NCBI GenBank assembly: GCA_003222675.1
Contig: QHWT01000049.1
Location: 41,257 to 105,256 of the forward strand
Length of the DNA stretch: 64,000 nt
Source: Acidobacteriota bacterium
GTDB lineage: Bacteria; Acidobacteriota; Vicinamibacteria; Vicinamibacterales; 2-12-FULL-66-21
Reading direction: 5' to 3'
The position numbers and the translations under genes are program-made. The notes under the pieces were generated by a model that was not told the origin of the DNA, ran no database searches, and saw only the letters and a list, made by a program, of their open reading frames with translations. Shown in pieces: positions 5,105 through 63,104 of the stretch (positions within the stretch are counted from its first letter, which is position 1; each line of letters begins with the position of its first letter).

Positions 5105-5119
5105 GAGGCCATTATACGG

Positions 5120-5265
5120 GGTTCACGGTTCACGGTTCACGGTTCACGGTTCACGGTTCACGGTTCACGGTTCAGGGTTCACGGTTCAGGGTTCACGGTT
5201 CAGGGTTCACGGTTCACGGTTCACGGTTCATGGTTCAGGGTTCACGGTTATGGTTCATGGTTCGT
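5120..5265. repeat. Heptamer array GGTTCA[C/G/T], 18 consecutive units then degenerate
   Basis: 18 consecutive 7-mers 5120-5245, first six positions invariant, only position 7 varies (C 13, G 4, T 1). Confidence 0.95.
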
Positions 5266-7785: not shown

Positions 7786-7792
7786 CAGAACG

Positions 7793-7901
7793 GGGACACT
7801 CACACTTTTTCGCGACAATGGGACGAACTGTGAGTGTCCCCCTTCCAGAAACGGGGACACTCACACTTTTTCACGATAATGCGACGAACTGTGAGTGTCC
7901 C
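7793..7901. repeat. Two REP-like inverted repeats GGGACACTCACA-N24-TGTGAGTGTCCC
   Basis: Arms at 7793-7804/7829-7840 and 7854-7865/7890-7901, perfect 12-bp arms. Confidence 0.95.
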
Positions 7902-7963
7902 GCTTTCAGGCTGCGTGCCTGAGCCAGCATGAGCCGTGCGCCCGTGAGCCATAAGCTCTAGCC

Positions 7964-23518: not shown

Positions 23519-23696
23519 CGCCGAGGGCCGAGGGCCGAGGGCCGAGGTCCGACGCGCACGGCGTACAACCTATCCCTGAACACGTGAACCCTGAACCGTG
23601 AACCCTGAACCGTGAACACGTGAACCCTGAACCGTGAACCGTGAACCGTGAACCATGAACCATGAACCATGAACCGTGAACCGTGAACCGTGAACC
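23519..23696. repeat. Two heptamer arrays: CCGAGGG (23519-23556) and GTGAACC/ATGAACC (23576-23696)
   Basis: Read directly; second array ends 2 nt from the stop codon (CTA, 23698-23700) of the FadB-like gene. Confidence 0.93.
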
Positions 23697-23697
23697 A

Positions 23698-25917
23698 CTA
23701 GTTTCTGAGCGCCTTCCCTGTTTTCAACATGTGTCCAATACGCTCGAGTGTTTTGCGTTCGCCGCAGAGACTGAGGAACGCTTCGCGCTCGAGATCGAGC
23801 AGCTGCTGTTCCGTCATCGTCCCGGCGGCCTTCGTGTTGCCGCCTGAAAGAATCCACGCCAGCTTGCGTCCGATGAGCGCGTCGTGATCGCTGATACGGC
23901 CCGCACGCGACGCGAGGTGCACGCCGAGCTTCAGCGCGGCATAGACGCCTTCGCCGCCGACGCGGATCGCCTGGCGGGGATGATCCGGCTTATATCCGCT
24001 GCGGGCGAGACCGAGCGCGTGGTCCTTCGCGTCGGCGAGCAGGCGATCGCGGTTCATCGTGATCGCGTCGCCGTCGCGCAGGTAGCCGATGCGCATTGCA
24101 TCGGGACCGCTCGTCGATACCTTTGCGAACCCGATCGTTTCGAACACGCGCTGGACGTGCGGCAGCAGATCGGCGCCGGCCGGCAGATGCTCGACGGCGC
24201 GCGCGAGCATCTCCTTCGTGCCGCCTCCGGCGGGAATCAGCCCGACGCCAACCTCGACGAGGCCCATGTATGTTTCGGCCGCCGCCTGCACGCGCGCGCC
24301 GTGGAGCGCGATCTCGCATCCGCCCCCCAGCGTCATCCCCGCGGGGGCGACGACAACCGGCACGTCGGCGTACCTCAACGCCAGCGTCGCGCCCTGGAAC
24401 GCGCGGACCATCATGTCCACCTCGTCCCAGTTGCCTTCCTGCGCCTCGAGCAGGAGCAGCATGACGTTGGCGCCGACGGAGAAGTTCGCGGCATCGTTGC
24501 CGACGACGAGGGCGGCGAAATTTGCCGATGCTTCTTTGACGCCGGCGTGCAGCATCTGGATGGTGTCGCCGCCGATCGCGTTCATCTTGGAGTGGAACTC
24601 GACGCCCAGCACGCCGTCGCCCAGGTCCATGAGGCTGGCGCCCGCGTTCATCCTGACGACCCGGGCGCCGCGCAGCACAGAAACCGGGACACTCACAGTT
24701 CCGGGAACGGTGACTGTCACACTTTCCGGAACTGTGACTGTCACCGTTTCTGATCCCCCACGGCCGAGGGCGCGCAGCGTTTCGAACGGGCCCAGATCCC
24801 AGCCGAAGCCCCATCGCATCGCATTGTCGATGTCGTCGGTCGAGTACGCGATGTCGGGGGCAATCCGCGCGGCGTACTCCAGCGTGGGGACGAGCGTGTC
24901 GCGCAGGAACGCCCCAACCTTGTCCTTGCCATTGACCAGCGTCGCGATGCGTGCCGGCGTGGACTCGATCGACCGTGCGGCGTCGAGCGACGGAAATTTC
25001 GCGGATCGCCGTTCGCGATACTCGAGCGTCTTCGGATCGAGCGTAAGAATCTGCTCGCCTTCCTTCTTGTAGAACCCTCGCCCGGCCTTCGCGCCCGTCA
25101 TGCTGCGCGCGACCATCCGTTCGACGAACTCGGGCAGCACGAACGCCGTGCGCTCCGTGGGGTCCTGAAGCTGCTCCGCCAGATTGCGCGCCACGTGCGC
25201 CAGCACATCAACGCCCGCAATATCCAGCGTCCGGAACGTCGCGCTCTTTGGACGCCCGATCGCGGGACCCGTGATCGCGTCGATCTCTTCGATCGTGAAG
25301 TCGCCGGAGGCAAGCGCCCGGAACACCTGCATGACGCCGAACAACGCGATGCGGTTACCGATGAAGTTCGGCGTGTCCTTCGCGACGACGATCCCTTTGC
25401 CGAGGCGCACGTCCCCGAACTCGGCAACGGTCTCGAGCACGCGCGGGTCGGTCTCGGGCGTCGGGATCAGCTCGAGGAGCCGAAGATAGCGCGGCGGGTT
25501 GAAAAAATGCGTCCCGAGCCAGCGACGGCGAAACGCGTCGGACCGTCCCTCGGCGATCGACGCGAGAGGGATCCCGGACGTGTTGGAGCTGACGATCGCG
25601 TCGGTCCGCCTGTGCTGGTCGACACGCGCGAGCAGCGCCTGCTTGATGTCCAGGCGTTCGACGACCGCTTCGAGAATCCAGTCGGCGTCGCGAATCGCCG
25701 CGAGGTCCTCGTCGAACGAGCCGGTCTTGATCAGCGTGACGGCATCGGGCGTGAAGAACGGGTCCGGCTTCAGCGCGCGTGCGCGTTTCAAGCCCTCAGC
25801 GCCGGCCTCCCGCGTGACGTCGAGCATCAGGACCGTCAGACCCGCATTCGCGAAATGCGCGGCGATTTGCGCGCCCATCACGCCTGCGCCCAACACGGCG
25901 GCCGATCGGATTTTCAC
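23698..25917 (-). CDS. Bifunctional 3-hydroxyacyl-CoA dehydrogenase / enoyl-CoA hydratase (FadB/FadJ-like)
   Basis: MKIRSAAVLGAGVMGAQIAAHFANAGLTVLMLDV..., GTHFFNPPRYLRLLELIP, GGGCEIALHGARVQAAAETYMGLVEVGVGLIPAGGGTKEML. Confidence 0.94.
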   Translation of the reverse strand: MKIRSAAVLGAGVMGAQIAAHFANAGLTVLMLDVTREAGAEGLKRARALKPDPFFTPDAVTLIKTGSFDEDLAAIRDADWILEAVVERLDIKQALLARVDQHRRTDAIVSSNTSGIPLASIAEGRSDAFRRRWLGTHFFNPPRYLRLLELIPTPETDPRVLETVAEFGDVRLGKGIVVAKDTPNFIGNRIALFGVMQVFRALASGDFTIEEIDAITGPAIGRPKSATFRTLDIAGVDVLAHVARNLAEQLQDPTERTAFVLPEFVERMVARSMTGAKAGRGFYKKEGEQILTLDPKTLEYRERRSAKFPSLDAARSIESTPARIATLVNGKDKVGAFLRDTLVPTLEYAARIAPDIAYSTDDIDNAMRWGFGWDLGPFETLRALGRGGSETVTVTVPESVTVTVPGTVSVPVSVLRGARVVRMNAGASLMDLGDGVLGVEFHSKMNAIGGDTIQMLHAGVKEASANFAALVVGNDAANFSVGANVMLLLLEAQEGNWDEVDMMVRAFQGATLALRYADVPVVVAPAGMTLGGGCEIALHGARVQAAAETYMGLVEVGVGLIPAGGGTKEMLARAVEHLPAGADLLPHVQRVFETIGFAKVSTSGPDAMRIGYLRDGDAITMNRDRLLADAKDHALGLARSGYKPDHPRQAIRVGGEGVYAALKLGVHLASRAGRISDHDALIGRKLAWILSGGNTKAAGTMTEQQLLDLEREAFLSLCGERKTLERIGHMLKTGKALRN
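24680..24750. repeat. REP-like GGGACACTCACA-family imperfect palindrome in the FadB-like inter-domain linker
   Basis: gaaaccgggacactcacagttcc ... ggaactgtgactgtcaccgtttc; encodes SETVTVTVPESVTVTVPGTVSVPVS. Confidence 0.9.
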
Positions 25918-26591
25918 GGCCGCCTCGCTTTCCGGGGCGTGGGGCGCGGGATCCGGGATGCGGCGGTTCTCACGTTCGCGACGCCGCGGACGAACATCTC
26001 TATGATGGCATCTACGTCATTCACGGGCGCGTAACGACGGGCGCTGAGGATCCAGTTGGTGGCCATCTCGTCCAGTCCGCCGAAGAACAGCTTGGCGGCC
26101 AATGTCGGATTGATCTCGCGCCGGAAAGCGCCCGTGGCCTGCCCCTCGACGATGACCTCGCGGATGATGCCGAGGTACTCGCGCAGCGCCGTCGCCGAGA
26201 ACCGCTCCATGAATTTCGTGGACTGCCGCAACTCGACCTGGAACACGACCGCGAGGCTGCGGTCACGCCCCATGCGACCGAGATGAACGCGGGCGATCGC
26301 ACGGAGACGCTCGACCGGATCCTTTATCGGGGCCACCGATGCGCGTCCCTCCTCGATCCATTCGCGCATCGTCCGGTCGAAGATCGAAACGAGCAGGTCG
26401 TCCTTGCTGCGGAAATACAGGTAGACGGTGCCGGCCGCGACGCCGGCCGCCCGCGCGACGTCCGCGACCTGCGCGTTGAAGAACCCGCGGCTCGCGAACA
26501 CGTCGGTCGCGGCGCGCAGGATGGCGTCGCGCTTGTCGCCTCTTTCGAGCAGGGGGCGGGCGGTGGCGGTGGTCACTGAATGAATGGTCAT
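25914..26591 (-). CDS. TetR/AcrR-family regulator (FadR-like, beta-oxidation)
   Basis: RDAILRAATDVFASRGFFNAQVADVARAAGVAAGTVYLYFRSKDDLLVSIFD; first gene of a fatty-acid degradation cluster. Confidence 0.9.
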   Translation of the reverse strand: MTIHSVTTATARPLLERGDKRDAILRAATDVFASRGFFNAQVADVARAAGVAAGTVYLYFRSKDDLLVSIFDRTMREWIEEGRASVAPIKDPVERLRAIARVHLGRMGRDRSLAVVFQVELRQSTKFMERFSATALREYLGIIREVIVEGQATGAFRREINPTLAAKLFFGGLDEMATNWILSARRYAPVNDVDAIIEMFVRGVANVRTAASRIPRPTPRKARRP

Positions 26592-26594: not shown

Positions 26595-26617
26595 TTTCGG
26601 GTTGGATTGTCAAGTCA

Positions 26618-26712
26618 TTCACGGCTCACGGTTCACGGTTCACGGTTCACGGTTCTGGTTCCTGGTTCCGGGTTCCGGGTTCCGATTCCGGGTTCAGAGT
26701 TCCAGGTTCGGG
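26618..26712. repeat. Degenerate heptamer array, core GGTTCAC/GGTTCCG
   Basis: GGCTCAC GGTTCAC GGTTCAC GGTTCAC ... GGTTCCT GGTTCCG GGTTCCG. Confidence 0.9.
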
Positions 26713-27204
26713 TGGTGCGCCCGAACCGTTGTTTCTGGGAGGTCCTTCGTCTTCGACGCGTTTGCGAGGGCTTGACTCAAAGGGCGGCGCGTCGCCATGT
26801 GCATAGTCCGGATAATTGTCGCCGCACTTTATGAGATATTCGTGGAGCCGTGTCGTCGCGCCGAACGCGCGTCTGGACAGGCGCCACAGGCGATTGAATT
26901 CCTCTTCGTTGACGTAGTTTTTCGTGAGCGCCTTTTGTAAGTGATTTTGCGTTTCACCGAGCTCGCCGAGAGCGTCCCGTAACCGCTGCGCAAATGGTTT
27001 CGGTCGGTACCGCGCGAACCCTTCTGCGATGTTCGCCGGGGCGCTGCTCGTGGAATCCCGAATTTGATCGCAGAATCCGAAATCCCTCGAAACGAGTGGC
27101 TTCGCAAGTATTGCTTCCACTCCCAGTCGAAGTTCCTCTGAAAGCCGCCAACAATCGAGTTGTTCGTGATGTCGTGCTATTGCCATGCTCAGGCCGAAGC
27201 ACAT
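26647..27204 (-). CDS. Four-helix-bundle protein (IVP23S / S23, Avd-like superfamily)
   Basis: MAIARHHEQLDCWRLSEELRLGVEAILAKPLVSRDFGFCDQIRDSTSSAPANIAEGFARYRPKPFAQRLRDALGELGETQNHL is typical of the family; the first half of ORF 26647..27651 is not this gene. Confidence 0.85.
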   Translation of the reverse strand: MCFGLSMAIARHHEQLDCWRLSEELRLGVEAILAKPLVSRDFGFCDQIRDSTSSAPANIAEGFARYRPKPFAQRLRDALGELGETQNHLQKALTKNYVNEEEFNRLWRLSRRAFGATTRLHEYLIKCGDNYPDYAHGDAPPFESSPRKRVEDEGPPRNNGSGAPPEPGTLNPESEPGTRNQEPEP

Positions 27205-27214
27205 TCCATGCCGA

Positions 27215-27293
27215 ACCACGCACCATGAACCATGAACCATGAACCATGAACCGTGAACCGTGAACCGTGAACCGTGAACCGTGAACCGTGAAC
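27215..27293. repeat. Heptamer array GTGAACC/ATGAACC (inverted relative to the 26618 array)
   Basis: ACCATGA x4 then ACCGTGA x6; ends at the stop codon (CTA 27294-27296) of the ABC permease. Confidence 0.93.
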
Positions 27294-28106
27294 CTACTTC
27301 CACCTCGTAAGAATCGTCTCCCGTTCGAACAGCGCTTCGCTGAGCCAAATCAGGAAGATCCAAGTTACCGCCAAGGCGAGCGCGAGGAGCAGCAGCAGCG
27401 GCGTCGTGACGATGAACGCGCCGGCAATCTGGCCGATCAGCATCAGCACGAGCGGCAGGACGATGAGCACGGCAATCTGTTGTGCGCTCCGCGCGTCGTT
27501 CACGCGCGACGAGACCGCAATCGTCATCTGCAGTGCCGTCAGCGACGCGAAGGGTCCGACGAGACCCAGAAGGATCACGCTCCGCACGCTGACGAGCGTC
27601 GCGGTGACGCCGGGCAATGCCGTCGCGCCCACGAGCAGCACGTAGATGCACACCCCCGCGAGCTCGATTGCCAATGACGGCAGGAACGACGCCAGCACCT
27701 TCGCCAGCAGGATCTCTGAGGTCGACATCGGCGACGTCAGCAGCGGCTCCAGCGTGCGTCCCTGCTTTTCTCCGACGACGCTGTAGGCCGCGAGGGAGAC
27801 GGCGCCGAAGATCGGCGCGACGAGGAAAAGAAGGAGGAACTGTTGAAACAGAAACGCCTGGGCCGCCGCGTCGGGCGGGAGCCTGCCGAGACCGGGCACG
27901 CGCCCGCGCGCGAGCGAGACGACGTGTTGAAGGACTCGATCGGACGTGATCGACTGACCCGTCATGCGCGGAATGCCGATGACGACCACGAACGGCAGCA
28001 CCGTGCAGACGACAACGAGCAGGATCACCGGAGCGATCGCCGCGGGGCTCGAGCGGAACTCGCGGAGCTCCTTGCCCATCAGGACAACGATGCGATCCGC
28101 CTTCAC
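27294..28106 (-). CDS. ABC-2 type transporter permease
   Basis: 270 aa, multiple TM segments, YSVVGEKQGRTLEPLLTSPMSTSEILLAKVLASFLPSL; GTG start overlapping the upstream TGA (GTGA). Confidence 0.9.
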   Translation of the reverse strand: MKADRIVVLMGKELREFRSSPAAIAPVILLVVVCTVLPFVVVIGIPRMTGQSITSDRVLQHVVSLARGRVPGLGRLPPDAAAQAFLFQQFLLLFLVAPIFGAVSLAAYSVVGEKQGRTLEPLLTSPMSTSEILLAKVLASFLPSLAIELAGVCIYVLLVGATALPGVTATLVSVRSVILLGLVGPFASLTALQMTIAVSSRVNDARSAQQIAVLIVLPLVLMLIGQIAGAFIVTTPLLLLLALALAVTWIFLIWLSEALFERETILTRWK

Positions 28107-29182
28107 GAACCGTGAACCCCTGAACCGTGAACCCCTGAACCGTGAACCGATGAACCGTGAACCGATGAACCGTGAACCGATGAACCGTGAACCGATGAAC
28201 CGTGAACCGATGAACCGTGAACCGATGAACCGTGAACCGATGAACCGTGAACCGGTGAACCGTGAACCGGTGAACCGAGAAGCTTCAGATAAACCTCTTC
28301 TAATGGCGGCTCTTCATCAAACGCTTCGCGGATCTCCGCTCCCGCATCGACCAGCGACCGGATGACGACCGGCGTCATCCGATCCGGCGCTTCGAGCACC
28401 ATCGACAGATCCGTTCCGTGGATCTGCACGTCCTGTCCGCCGGCCCGCGCGGCGACGGCGGCAAGCGCCGGCAGCGGCGGATATGACGTCAGCATGCGCA
28501 CGCGCAGGCGGCGCCCGAACAAATCACGGCGCAACGCGGCAGGCTCGCCGACGGCGACCAGCGTGCGGCTCACCAGGCCCACGCGATCGGCGACGCGCTC
28601 GACCTCGTCGAGATTGTGCGTGGAGACGACGACGGTGCGCCCCTGGTGCCGCAGATCGCGGAGGAGATCGCGAACGGTGCGCGACATCTCGGGATCGAGA
28701 TTCGCCGTCGGCTCGTCGAGCAGGACGACCTCCGGGTCGTGCACGAGCGCGCGGCCCAGCGCAAGCTTCTGCTTCATGCCCTTCGAAAGGAGCGCCACGC
28801 GATCCGCCCGGCGATCCCACAGCTCGAACAGTCGCAGGATGCGCTCGACGGCGAGCGCCGCGCCGCGAACGCGGAAGAGGCGCGCGTACACCAGCAGGTT
28901 CTCGTCGACGGTAAGGAGATCCCACAGGCCCGGCGTTTCCGTCATGAAGCCGATACGCGCGCGAAGTGCCGCGCCCGACGCGCGCGTGAACGTCTCGCCA
29001 TCGATTGCCACGCGGCCCGATGAAGGAGGGATCAGCCCGCCAATCATCCTCAGTATCGTCGTCTTTCCCGCGCCATTCGGGCCGACGAGGCCGAAGACCT
29101 CGCCCGGACGGACCTCGAACGTCACGTTGTCGACGGCGCTCCGGTCGCCGAAGCGGCGGGTCACGTTGGTGACGGAGACCAC
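28103..29182 (-). CDS. ABC transporter ATP-binding protein with repeat-encoded pentapeptide tail
   Basis: GLVGPNGAGKTTILRMIGGLI (Walker A), LSKGMKQKLALGRALVHDPEVVLLDEPTANLDP; C-terminus LKLL(GSPVH)2(GSSVH)7(GSGVH)2GS*. Start taken as GTG at 29182; the longer ORF to 29440 is repeat-encoded. Confidence 0.88.
   Translation of the reverse strand: MVSVTNVTRRFGDRSAVDNVTFEVRPGEVFGLVGPNGAGKTTILRMIGGLIPPSSGRVAIDGETFTRASGAALRARIGFMTETPGLWDLLTVDENLLVYARLFRVRGAALAVERILRLFELWDRRADRVALLSKGMKQKLALGRALVHDPEVVLLDEPTANLDPEMSRTVRDLLRDLRHQGRTVVVSTHNLDEVERVADRVGLVSRTLVAVGEPAALRRDLFGRRLRVRMLTSYPPLPALAAVAARAGGQDVQIHGTDLSMVLEAPDRMTPVVIRSLVDAGAEIREAFDEEPPLEEVYLKLLGSPVHGSPVHGSSVHGSSVHGSSVHGSSVHGSSVHGSSVHGSSVHGSGVHGSGVHGS
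28112..28276. repeat. 11 x 15-bp tandem repeat GTGAACCNNTGAACC
   Basis: Direct count: 2 x GTGAACCCCTGAACC, 7 x GTGAACCGATGAACC, 2 x GTGAACCGGTGAACC, contiguous. Confidence 0.97.
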
Positions 29183-29203
29183 GAGTGAATGGTAATCGTT
29201 GTC

Positions 29204-29430
29204 GGGATGCGGGGTGCGGGATCCGGCGTGCGGGGTGCGGGATCCGGGGTGCGGGGTGCGGAGTGCGTCGCGAGTGTTGACTTCCGCATCCCGGTCTGCC
29301 GACGCGCATACTGTGAGCGAAGCCGCGCCGCACCCCGCGTCCCAAACCGCGCACCCCGCACCCCGCGTCCCGCACCCCGCACCCCGCACCCCGCACCCCG
29401 CGCCCCGCACCCCGCACCCCGCACCCCGCG
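29204..29430. repeat. Heptamer array GCGGGRT / CCCCGCA, two inverted blocks
   Basis: GCGGGGT GCGGGAT CCGGCGT GCGGGGT GCGGGAT ... then complementary CCCCGCA units. Confidence 0.9.
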
Positions 29431-29513
29431 TGAGTAGCACTTTCGGCGTATGGCGACCCGAAGCGCATCAGGGGTATAGTTCCGCCAGCCCCCCGAGCTA
29501 CGAGCAGGACCCC

Positions 29514-34901: not shown

Positions 34902-37001
34902 CTACTTCCACGCCAGTGACGCGAGCGCCTCTTTCGCTTGCGGCACGTACGGGCCTCCCAGCTGCACGTACTTCTCGAAGCTCGCGATCGCGCGGCGGCG
35001 ATCGTGCTCGCCGCCGGCCCACTTCTGCGTTTCACGGACGTAGCGCTGCGACTTCATCATGCGCATCTGCAGCGCGCGGCCGAGATTGAAGTAGCCCAGC
35101 GCGTCCCCGGGAGCGATCGTCGTCGCGCGCTCGAACGAGTCGACGGCCGCGTCGAGCGCGCCGCGGCGGACCTGGATCACGCCGATCGCATTGGCGACCT
35201 CGGGGTCGGTGGTCCAACGCTTCTCCGCGTCGCGCAGTATGCCAATCGCGGCGCCTTCCTCGCGCTGCAGCAGGTAGGCGTCCGCCAGGTTGAAGTAGAC
35301 GGGCTCGAACTCCGGGACTGCGGCGCGGACGCGCTCCCACGATTGCGCGGCGTCGCGATAGCGCTGCAGTGCCAGGTGCGAGAGTCCCAGCGCGTAATGG
35401 ACCCAGGGTCGCGCGTCAGGTGATCGGGCCGCCTCGATGAACTCGCGCGACGCGGACTCGACGTCGCCGCGCTGATAGGCGGCCCAGCCTCTGGCGGCCG
35501 CCGTCGTCGGCGCGTCGTCATCGGTCCCGCGCAGCTGCTGGACGATCCGTCCCGACTCGATCTTCGACCGGATTGCGTTCGCCGCGGTGGTGGCTCCCTC
35601 GACAGCCGTCCCAGGGACGGACAGTGGCGGCTTCGGAACGGTGACAGTCACACTTTCCGTCGGAACTGTGAGTGTCCCCCTTTCTGAAACGGGGACACTC
35701 ACACTTTCGGGGGCCGGAACTGTGACTGTCCCGCTTTCCGTGCTCGGAACTGTGACTGTCACGCTTTCGGGCCGCGGGACCAGCAGCTTCGCCGGCTCGA
35801 GCGCAAGATAGCCGCGCCGGGCGCGGACGCGGACGCCGGGGCGCGTCACCTTCACCGAGATGCTGCGGTACTTGCCGTCAAGCTTGTCGTTCGTCGGGCT
35901 GTAGGCGAGCACGTAGTACGTCGCGGCGTCGCGCTGGATCGTGTCCAGCGCGCGGCCGAAGTTGTTTTCGTTCCGCATCGCCATGCCGCCAGTGTCGACT
36001 GCGAGGCTGTTCGTGCCATCTTCCTGCATGTCGAACCGCGCGGTCCCGCCTGCGGGGTCATCGGCCAGCTTCTGATCAATCAGATCCGATGTCGTGCCCT
36101 TGTTCAGCCCCCGCGCGTCGACGGTGTAGAAGTGCGCACCCGCGCGCGCGGCCTGGCCTACGGCGAGCCGCACCTCCGCATCCATGTTCTGCAGCACGAA
36201 CCCCTCGGACAGGAAGACCACGGTCTTCGCGCCCGGCATGCGCGCAAGCCCGCGCGACAGCGCCTCGACTACTGCAAGCGTTTCGTGGGTTGCCGTGCGG
36301 TACTGCGCGACCACGCGGTTCGCCTTCTCGCGGACCTGCAGGTCCGGTGGTGCCGCCCTGCACATGTCCGGCTCCTCGGAGCACGCGCGGATGATCGCGG
36401 TGTCGAGCGCGTCCTTCTCGTTATTGGCAATCCGAAACGCCTCGAACACATCGCGCAGGCGCGGCCACTCGCGCAGGTCGAGCTGACGAGATCGCATGTC
36501 GCCGGCGAACTTCGCGTTCGCAGCCGCTTTCCGCAGTTCCTCGCGATCGGACGTCAGGCGGTTGTTTGCCATCTTCCCGTCGACGACAACGCCGCCAATG
36601 TCTTCCGGACGGAATTTCTCAGCGATGAACTTCACCACGGCGTCGCGGGTGCGCTGAAGCCCCCCGGGCGACAGGTGCGTCGTGTCGAAAACGAACAGCC
36701 AGACCTCCGGCGGCGCGGAAGGCGCGGGCGGCGCGACAGGTGCGGAAGGTACTGTGGCTGCGGAAGGCGGTATCGGGCCAGAGGATGCCGCGTCAGCACC
36801 GATCAACGTGACGTGGAGGATCTTCTGCGCGACGCCGTCCTCTTCGAGCTGGAAATCGGCGGCCGACAGTCCCGTGACGAAGTGGCCGTTCTTGTCGGCG
36901 ACGCGCACATCGACTTCGACGAGCTCGGTGGCCGAGCGGAACGTCTGCCGCGGATCCTGCGCGGCGGCGATCAGCAGCAGAGCGAGGATGCCTGCCCGCA
37001 T
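34902..37001 (-). CDS. VWFA-related (acidobacterial-type) domain protein with C-terminal TPR
   Basis: VDVRVADKNGHFVTGLSAADFQLEEDGVAQKI, VVFLSEGFVLQNMD, YYVLAYSPTNDKLDGKYRSISVKVTRPGVRVRARRGYLA; TPRs follow. Confidence 0.88.
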   Translation of the reverse strand: MRAGILALLLIAAAQDPRQTFRSATELVEVDVRVADKNGHFVTGLSAADFQLEEDGVAQKILHVTLIGADAASSGPIPPSAATVPSAPVAPPAPSAPPEVWLFVFDTTHLSPGGLQRTRDAVVKFIAEKFRPEDIGGVVVDGKMANNRLTSDREELRKAAANAKFAGDMRSRQLDLREWPRLRDVFEAFRIANNEKDALDTAIIRACSEEPDMCRAAPPDLQVREKANRVVAQYRTATHETLAVVEALSRGLARMPGAKTVVFLSEGFVLQNMDAEVRLAVGQAARAGAHFYTVDARGLNKGTTSDLIDQKLADDPAGGTARFDMQEDGTNSLAVDTGGMAMRNENNFGRALDTIQRDAATYYVLAYSPTNDKLDGKYRSISVKVTRPGVRVRARRGYLALEPAKLLVPRPESVTVTVPSTESGTVTVPAPESVSVPVSERGTLTVPTESVTVTVPKPPLSVPGTAVEGATTAANAIRSKIESGRIVQQLRGTDDDAPTTAAARGWAAYQRGDVESASREFIEAARSPDARPWVHYALGLSHLALQRYRDAAQSWERVRAAVPEFEPVYFNLADAYLLQREEGAAIGILRDAEKRWTTDPEVANAIGVIQVRRGALDAAVDSFERATTIAPGDALGYFNLGRALQMRMMKSQRYVRETQKWAGGEHDRRRAIASFEKYVQLGGPYVPQAKEALASLAWK
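35634..35770. repeat. REP-like GGGACACTCACA/GGAACTGTGACTGTC cluster inside the VWFA-TPR gene
   Basis: Alternating cggaactgtgagtgtcccc / ggggacactcacactttc / ggaactgtgactgtcccgctttcc, in frame. Confidence 0.92.
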
Positions 37002-59052: not shown

Positions 59053-60032
59053 GGCCTCGCCTCCGCCTCATTGAAGCCGCGAACCGGCGAACCTGTGAAG
59101 CCTGAACCGTGAACCGTGTACCGTGAACCCGTGAACCGGTATGCGCGGAGCGTGAGGACAAGCGACGCGCCCAGGACCAGCGCGCCGTTGACCACGTGCG
59201 CTGTGTTGACGACCGGGTTCATCCCTGTCAGCACGACGAACGCGCCAAGCGTGACCTGCGAGCAGACGAACGCCAGCAGCAGGATTGACGGACCGACGAG
59301 CTCACGACGATCGCGATGATGAACGAAGACGTGACCCGCCGTCGCGAGGATGGCGAGCGTGACCACGAGCGCGCCGACGCGATGCGCATAGTGAATGGCA
59401 ATCTGCGGCGTCCACGCCGGCGGCACGAGATGGCCGAACGCAAGCGGGAATGTCGGGATTGCCAGCCCCGCGTCGGTATGCCTCATCGTCGCGCCCAGGA
59501 TGATCTGGATGTACACAGCGGCCGTCGTGAGCGTTGCGACACGGGGCAGCATCGAGTCCCGGGTCGCAAGTCCCGAGTCGCGAGTCGCGGGCGCGCGCCA
59601 TCCCGGCGACGTCGCCAGCGCAAGCGTCAGCGTGAGGCAGAAGAAAATCTGCGCCAGCCCCGCATGGCCGATTGACACCGCCGGCGGGAGCAACAGCAAG
59701 ACCGTGAGGCCACCGAGCACGCCCTGGAGAATCACGGCGCCGAGGCACAGGAAGCCGAGCGTCCGCACCCACCGCCGGGGCTCGACGCGCCAGGTCCAGA
59801 GCGCGAGGATGATCGTCAGGAAGCCGACCGTGCTGGCGATCAACCGATGCGTGTGCTCGTAACGAATCCCGCCCACCCATTTGCTCAGCGGAAACGTAAA
59901 CATGTTCCACCCATACGTCGTCGGCCAGTCCGGCACGGAGAGGCCGGACCCGGTGCTCGTGACCATGCCGCCTGCCGCGATCAGCAGGACGGTGGAGAGG
60001 GCCACGAGTTTCGCGTAGCGATGGAGCCACAT
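59049..60032 (-). CDS. ctaA: Heme A synthase (COX15/CtaA)
   Basis: MWLHRYAKLVALSTVLLIAAGGMVTSTGSGLSVPDWPTTYGWNMF, RYEHTHRLIASTVGFLTIILA; C-terminal TGSRYTVHGSGFTGSPV is array-encoded. Confidence 0.93.
   Translation of the reverse strand: MWLHRYAKLVALSTVLLIAAGGMVTSTGSGLSVPDWPTTYGWNMFTFPLSKWVGGIRYEHTHRLIASTVGFLTIILALWTWRVEPRRWVRTLGFLCLGAVILQGVLGGLTVLLLLPPAVSIGHAGLAQIFFCLTLTLALATSPGWRAPATRDSGLATRDSMLPRVATLTTAAVYIQIILGATMRHTDAGLAIPTFPLAFGHLVPPAWTPQIAIHYAHRVGALVVTLAILATAGHVFVHHRDRRELVGPSILLLAFVCSQVTLGAFVVLTGMNPVVNTAHVVNGALVLGASLVLTLRAYRFTGSRYTVHGSGFTGSPVRGFNEAEARP
59082..59135. repeat. Degenerate GTGAACC heptamer array in the 3' end of ctaA
   Basis: gaaccggcgaacctgtgaagcctgaaccgtgaaccgtgtaccgtgaacccgtgaacc. 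Confidence 0.88.
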
Positions 60033-62332: not shown

Positions 62333-62350
62333 ATCTCACGATGATAACAG

Positions 62351-63104
62351 CCACGGATGGCGCGGATACCGTTGGAGCCACGGATCACACGGACAACACG
62401 GATCAAAGAACATTAAAAAATTGAGATCCGTGAGATCCGTGAGATCCGTGGCCTCGCGTTGACCGAGTGGGTGTGGTTGCCAGAATCAGTGGTTCAACCG
62501 CCACGGATGGCGCGGATACCGTTGGAGCCACGGATTACACGGACCACACGGATCAAAGAACATCAAAAAATTCTGATCCCGGGAGATCCGTGAGATCCGT
62601 GGCCTCGCGGTTGACCGAGTGGGTGTGGTTGCCAGAATCAGTGGTTCAACCGCCACGGGTGGCGCGGATACCGTTGGAGCCACGGATCACCCGGACAACA
62701 CGGATCAAAGAACATTAAAAAATTCCGATCCGTGAGATCCGTGAGATCCGTGGCCTCGTGGTTGACGATGGGGCGTGGTTGCCAGAATCAGTGGTTCAAC
62801 CGCCACGGGTGGCGCGGATACCGTTGGAGCCGCGGATTACACGGACCACACGGATCAAAGAACATTAGAAAATTGAGATCCGTGAGATCCGTGAGATCCG
62901 TGGCCTCGTGGTTGACCGAGTGGGCGTGGTTGCCAGAATCAGTGGTTCAACCGCCACGGATGGCGCGGATACCGTTGGAGCCGCGGATCACACGGACCAC
63001 ACGGATCAAAGAACATTAGAAAATTGAGATCCATGAGACCCGTGAGATCCGTGGCCTCGCGGTTGACCGAGTGGGCGTGTGTTGCTACAATCAGTGGTTC
63101 GAGC
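62351..63104. repeat. Five tandem ~150-152 bp units directly upstream of tRNA-Glu
   Basis: ccacgg(a/g)tggcgcggataccgttggagcc begins at 62351, 62501, 62653, 62803, 62954; internal GATCCGTGA 9-mers. Confidence 0.96.
63063..63091 (+). promoter_or_regulatory. Sigma70-type promoter for tRNA-Glu: TTGACC-N17-TACAAT
   Basis: TTGACC 63063-63068, 17-nt spacer, TACAAT 63086-63091, 11 bp before the tRNA 5' end. Confidence 0.8.

Follow-up and report, generated by a model that had tools for sequence, protein, structure and literature searches.

The window analysed here is a stretch of 64,000 nucleotides, in which a gene of the IVP23S family lies between a TetR-family regulator of the YsiA/FadR type (TetR_C_4; 25914..26591, - strand) and an ABC-2 permease (27294..28106, - strand). 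These Pfam assignments agree with the initial annotation, which had placed the gene between a FadR-type regulator and an ABC permease. The ORF (26647..27186, - strand) reads from 27186 to 26647 and encodes 179 aa beginning with MAIARHHEQ. The earlier coordinates, 26647-27204, are right except for the start: an in-frame ATG upstream of 27186 gives 27204 as an alternative gene edge, and 27186 is the likeliest start. The protein matches the four-helix-bundle profile PF05635 of Pfam with 70.5 bits (cut-off 33.8) and thus belongs to the family. PF05635 is its sole Pfam match, no HUH/Y1 transposase is encoded, and the closest PDB entry is 2GSC (E=1.3e-8).

The gene is bracketed by two heptamer arrays in inverted orientation, as had been claimed. 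The left arm (26614..26713) is a GGTTCAC array that decays gene-ward; its core according to TRF is TTCACGG (5.4 copies, 93%, 26618-26655), beyond which the unit is the degenerate GGTTCCN. The right arm (27208..27302) is a GTGAACC array (ACCGTGA in TRF, 10.4 copies, 98% matches). TRF and a lag-7 detector concur on these arrays, and local alignment of the left arm with the reverse complement of the right arm scores 48, against 6 in direct orientation. The stop codon of the ORF falls within the left array, so that about 20 residues at the C-terminus are encoded by the array itself. Folded as RNA, the element reaches a predicted -304.9 kcal/mol (z=-8.9) with a terminal stem of about 40 bp.

Further arrays of the GGTTCAC family occur alone in the window: a GGTTCAC array at 5112..5263 and two TGAACCG arrays at 23577..23702 and 59072..59138 (all TRF), besides an array of period 15 at 28107..28281 (GAACCGTGAACCGAT; TRF), which lies within the C-terminus of an ABC ATPase. 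Read in frame, the latter gives the ATPase an (SSVHGS)n-like repeat tail; the C-terminus in the sister species is plain. A closed gene-less hairpin at 29203..29434 consists of two arrays separated by 55 bp, one of CGGGGTG and one its inverse, and shares its unit with another IVP locus of the genome, L003. Two other kinds of repeat were also seen: an element of about 54-61 bp with inverted ends AACGGGGACACTCACACT..GTGAGTGTCCCC, present as two related tandem pairs (7789-7909 and 35637-35738) and resembling a dispersed palindromic repeat, and a 151-bp tandem repeat in five copies (62346-63100) with inverted arrays of the nonamer CACGGATC/TGAGATCCG.

The gene had been described as lone, which does not hold, as the own genome (G000, a 7.16 Mb draft) contains 8 PF05635 genes. 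All of them (8 of 8) have arrays at the edge, on both sides by TRF in 7 of 8; at the eighth locus, L001, a second, short arm was found by alignment. At each locus the left unit and the reverse-complemented right unit are related, and the units vary between loci (left/right: GCTGCCA/AGCTGGC, CGGGGTG/GCCCCGC, GGGCTTC/GCCCGAA, TTCACGG/ACCGTGA, GGTTCTC/GAACCTGAGAAC, AATCCCG/CGCGGGA and AATCGGGG/CCCAATTA). A count over 464 kb of this genome gave 107 arrays, about one per 4.3 kb, and period 7 dominates among periods 4-15, as in the known tandem heptamer repeats (SSR/STRR). Inverted matched pairs in the 464 kb fall into two classes. Those of the first are 9-91 bp apart and gene-less; those of the second are 366-805 bp apart and surround IVP genes, the exceptions being pairs formed by two separate, neighbouring closed hairpins of one unit family that flank ribosomal-protein genes. 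The closed hairpins have the polarity of the IVP elements in every case found (13 of 13). With IVP units and IVP polarity they are scattered through the genome without a gene, a dispersal like that of REPINs in the REPIN/RAYT system. In the rpmJ-rpsM-rpsK-rpsD-rpoA operon (L036, 3480-5520 of contig C60 of this genome), every intergenic gap holds a closed heptamer-array hairpin; the one between rpmJ and rpsM is tandemly duplicated, and its unit AGGAGCT is common to L001.

Whether heptamer arrays flank IVP23S genes more often than other positions was assessed with a strict test for matched inverted arms. In the order, 68 of 84 testable IVP loci pass, against 2 in the mirror test with direct orientation (Wilcoxon p=6e-14). 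For other phyla, 80 named loci gave 73 testable ones (7 were dropped for short flanks), from Planctomycetota, Acidobacteriota, Chloroflexota, Deltaproteobacteria, Gemmatimonadota, Verrucomicrobiota, Omnitrophota, Hydrogenedentota, Synergistota, Fibrobacter and others. It turned out that 55 of the 73 pass, against 1 of 131 control positions shifted by 1500 bp; as the thresholds were set after the first loci had been seen, such counts are fairly judged against these controls and the scores in direct orientation. In at least a dozen phyla, IVP23S genes stand between two heptamer arrays that mirror each other; at some IVP loci arrays were not detectable. That the arrays delimit a cassette is accordingly upheld at all three levels (8 of 8 own loci, 68 of 84 in the order, 55 of 73 across phyla), and the joint absence of gene and arrays in a sister species, described below, backs it too.

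Among plasmid records only 7 of 16 loci pass a 200-nt version of the test, because many arms are short or the arrays are in mixed orientation; phage records gave no IVP match. Two contigs of a viral collection (L343, L344) carry IVP genes with AACGTTGAACGTTG-type arrays on both sides. On cyanobacterial plasmids, IVP genes with heptamer arms separate adjacent genes of operons, being located between nrdB and nrdA, cas6 and cas4, and cas10 and cmr3. Three IVP genes lie within cas operons of types I-D and III-B, between array arms (L086, L087, L091). 23S_rRNA_IVP has been reported as associated with CRISPR loci (PMC3936711, PMC10910872), and this association may reflect insertion into cas operons rather than function. 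In Azospirillum (L094) the IVP gene is inside the 23S rRNA gene (Rfam), and the stem there is a degenerate heptamer array.

The repeat unit follows the protein. For 68 elements, with pairs sharing orthologous flanks taken out, protein identity predicts the similarity of units read in gene orientation (Mantel r=0.245; 0 of 2000 permutations as high), and the reverse-complement control is negative (r=-0.08). IVPs resembling the one at L009 have, across phyla, a unit with periodic AGT (CAGTNNN): in a sample of 73, AGT at period 7 occurs upstream in 42 and inverted downstream in 38, against 4 and 1 on the wrong strand and 1 and 0 in control regions. IVPs resembling the window protein (39-49% identity) mostly have GGTTC or GGTGC cores, GGT(T/G)C, at a spacing of 7-10. 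Both groups of units always keep one polarity. On these sequence patterns, the unit core is tied to the protein subfamily across phyla, beyond what the host alone would give.

Arrays cognate to the resident proteins are abundant elsewhere in the same genomes. Units of the own IVP elements match solo arrays of the same genome with a mean of 4.1 matches per element, compared with 0.53 for foreign units (p=7e-6). The 16-mer GGTTCACGGTTCACGG, taken from the GGTTCAC arrays, has 224 hits in the own genome and 36 in G003; in the other 160 genomes it has at most 2 hits in three and none in 157, the sister species included. An orthologue of the window IVP exists in G003 only (77% identity). For the unit GGTAGCC, a prediction was written down before the run and came true in part: the predicted genomes G109 and G110 took ranks 1 and 3 (73 and 34 hits), and G010 has 50 hits although none of its 8 IVPs bears a GGTAGCC unit. 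These orphan arrays make the link between array and IVP strong but not exclusive; loss of the IVP with arrays left as remnants is one explanation of them, and an independent origin is another. Some arrays also occur in genomes where no IVP was detected. Overall array density was also compared with IVP count, and this idea was dropped as the correlation was not clean. The initial annotation had speculated that the family is linked to array formation. As an association this stands, since the unit follows the subfamily and cognate arrays are abundant; the claim that IVP causes the arrays fares worse, given the orphan array family in G010 and the arrays in genomes where no IVP was detected.

To trace the element at fixed sites, the regulator-permease junction was compared between relatives. 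An empty site does exist: in the sister species G001 the junction is intact, with the regulator and the permease (73% identity) kept and neither the gene nor the arrays present. By alignment, the nearby solo array (28107..28281) and closed hairpin (29203..29434) are missing from G001 as well. G003 has an IVP with the window unit and the gene flipped, as would be expected from inversion between the arms, or as insertion in either direction would give. As G003 is from a different genus, a loss in G001 is no less likely than a gain in the own genome; the absence of the IVP elsewhere in G001 is provisional because that assembly is 88% complete. No clear target-site duplication appears in the alignment to the G001 site, which is diverged, and no transposase lies between the window arms.

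An IVP element upstream of fusA is common to several genera; it is an old element passed on by vertical inheritance. Some genomes have it intact, and in others it is deleted, frameshifted or lost, with array remnants persisting. Its two arms match better within than across genomes (fixed-window test; 4 of 40,320 pairings as good), which indicates concerted or compensatory change. Extended to all orthologue groups, the co-variation test was uninformative, since flipped genes place coding sequence in the flanks being compared. Purifying selection acts on the IVP genes (pN/pS 0.16-0.37). Two IVP pairs with homologous flanks (L071/L119 and L024/L067) are apparently flipped relative to the flanking genes. 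No recent transposition was caught; the near-identical Calothrix copies L083 and L099 were rejected as a case of it, since their identity spans about 3.5 kb of plasmid and thus reflects plasmid duplication. A cassette mobilised by its arrays, as first proposed, is therefore a weaker proposition than suggested, the window element being common to another genus with no recent movement on record.

The Avd-type four-helix-bundle family is pentameric. Avd of diversity-generating retroelements (DGRs) belongs to a four-helix-bundle family homologous to IVP23S (PMC10053308), and a reverse transcriptase partner had been proposed as something to look for. The own genome contains one RVT_1 gene, unlinked, which on reading its sequence looks group II-intron-like, and G003, G010, G094, G079, G082, G155 and G158, several of them IVP-rich, have no RVT_1 match. 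A partner of the DGR kind, or any other reverse transcriptase, was rejected on these grounds; unlike Avd, the window IVP has no linked DGR reverse transcriptase.

Three known systems resemble the element in part. Intervening sequences (IVSs) of 23S rRNA have the same protein family (S23p/IVP23S), with the ORF in the loop of a stem formed by terminal inverted repeats, and such repeats also form a stem around the window ORF. 23S IVSs are reported to replace a tetraloop in 23S helices, their stems are RNase III substrates, and in Coxiella the IVS shows variable GACAGAT heptamers ahead of its IVP23S ORF (PMC4990558). The window element differs in lying outside 23S rRNA, between the TetR gene and the ABC permease, in its long tandem arms and in having gene-less relatives in other parts of the genome. 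REPIN/RAYT systems (PMC3116915) likewise combine a protein gene with inverted palindromic repeats, with a repeat class proper to each protein, non-autonomous hairpin doublets dispersed in intergenic DNA, and a mostly vertical protein whose copies are non-identical. However, RAYTs are HUH tyrosine transposases, whereas no catalytic site is known in the four-helix bundle of IVP23S, and the IVP arms are tandem heptamer arrays. Heptamer SSRs, finally, are described from Xanthomonas (GGGAATC) and Nostoc (GGGGA(T/C)T) (PMC4692102), Beggiatoaceae (TAACTGA; PMC4679880) and Geobacter (GGACCGG; PMC2700814), and as cyanobacterial STRR. They share period 7, intergenic position and many loci with the window arrays, the Xanthomonas arrays often form convergent pairs with the polarity of IVP-flanking arrays, and the consulted passages of the three papers name neither a protein partner nor IVP23S. 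A solved IVP23S structure, 2GSC, is XCC0516 from Xanthomonas, an assembly of five four-helix bundles according to the title of Lin et al. 2006 (cited in PMC3936711). In open-access PMC, no publication was found that links PF05635 to heptamer arrays.

We propose that the IVP23S element is a hairpin element in two parts, comparable to REPIN/RAYT, in which the protein recognises the array that belongs to it, a reading to which we give an even chance. It would be a composite hairpin: an imperfect palindrome carries the four-helix-bundle gene in its loop, and both arms consist of arrays of a single short unit, mostly of 7 bases, reading inward. It builds on the architecture and its generality across phyla, the polarity, the correlation of unit and protein, the cognate solo arrays, the empty site, the flipping and the purifying selection. 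From these we infer that the protein probably acts as a multimer that recognises hairpins built from the unit of its subfamily, whether DNA or RNA, and that it probably helps such hairpins, through host enzymes, to grow, to be maintained or to be copied. Host enzymes are proposed because the arms enclose no catalytic partner and several IVP-rich genomes lack reverse transcriptases. Gene-less closed hairpins elsewhere would also be favoured, a spreading in trans. The protein would work as a RAYT does with REPINs, which RAYTs are thought to extend or copy likewise (PMC3116915), but it is unrelated and apparently non-catalytic.

In the chief rival reading, IVP genes would instead be passengers that insert into the loops of pre-existing hairpins, with the arrays arising from polymerase slippage and spread by something else. 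Closed hairpins do outnumber IVP elements, both gene orientations occur at one site, and insertion into a loop would resemble the reported replacement of the tetraloop by 23S IVSs (PMC4990558); the orphan arrays of G010 and those in genomes with no detected IVP agree with it as well. Yet the unit core follows the protein subfamily across phyla and not the host only, the empty site of the sister species has no hairpin array, and the one 23S-embedded IVP examined also has a degenerate heptamer stem, though 23S helices are not array hairpins. We consider this unlikely, while giving it real weight.

The arms might also matter as an RNA stem, the hairpin of the IVP transcript being bound by the IVP or cut by RNase III, for autoregulation or for decoupling from the host operon, with compensatory change keeping the arms matched. 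The predicted fold of the window element, the co-variation of left and right arms between genera at fusA and the RNase III sensitivity of 23S IVS stems (PMC4990558) would all suit such a role; the cognate gene-less arrays across the genome, the tandem periodicity and the conservation of unit and polarity beyond complementarity are left unexplained, and we regard it as improbable. Ordinary intergenic simple repeats lying by chance beside an intergenic gene can hardly be credited, even at one array per about 4.3 kb in the own genome: IVP genes have matched inverted arms at least 50 times as often as shifted positions do, and the left and right units match although they differ from locus to locus.

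In a wider form of the composite-hairpin reading, which we put forward tentatively and rate somewhat short of even, IVP23S proteins would make or move the heptamer arrays of bacteria, with each subfamily reading its own unit core and building and copying hairpin arrays genome-wide with host polymerases and nucleases; the 23S location would be a special case of a hairpin-loop lifestyle, and DGR Avd a domesticated relative. Such a role predicts binding of cognate hairpins, arrays that depend on the protein, and Xanthomonas heptamers beside XCC0516. Heptamer arrays in Nostoc, Xanthomonas, Beggiatoa and Geobacter have long been known with no origin assigned, and IVP23S, an orphan family of wide distribution, has been recorded from intervening sequences of 23S rRNA and from cas loci and is kin to DGR Avd. 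The association gives a partner to both the unexplained protein and the unexplained arrays, over many phyla, and suggests a system like REPIN/RAYT in which a protein other than a transposase does the work.
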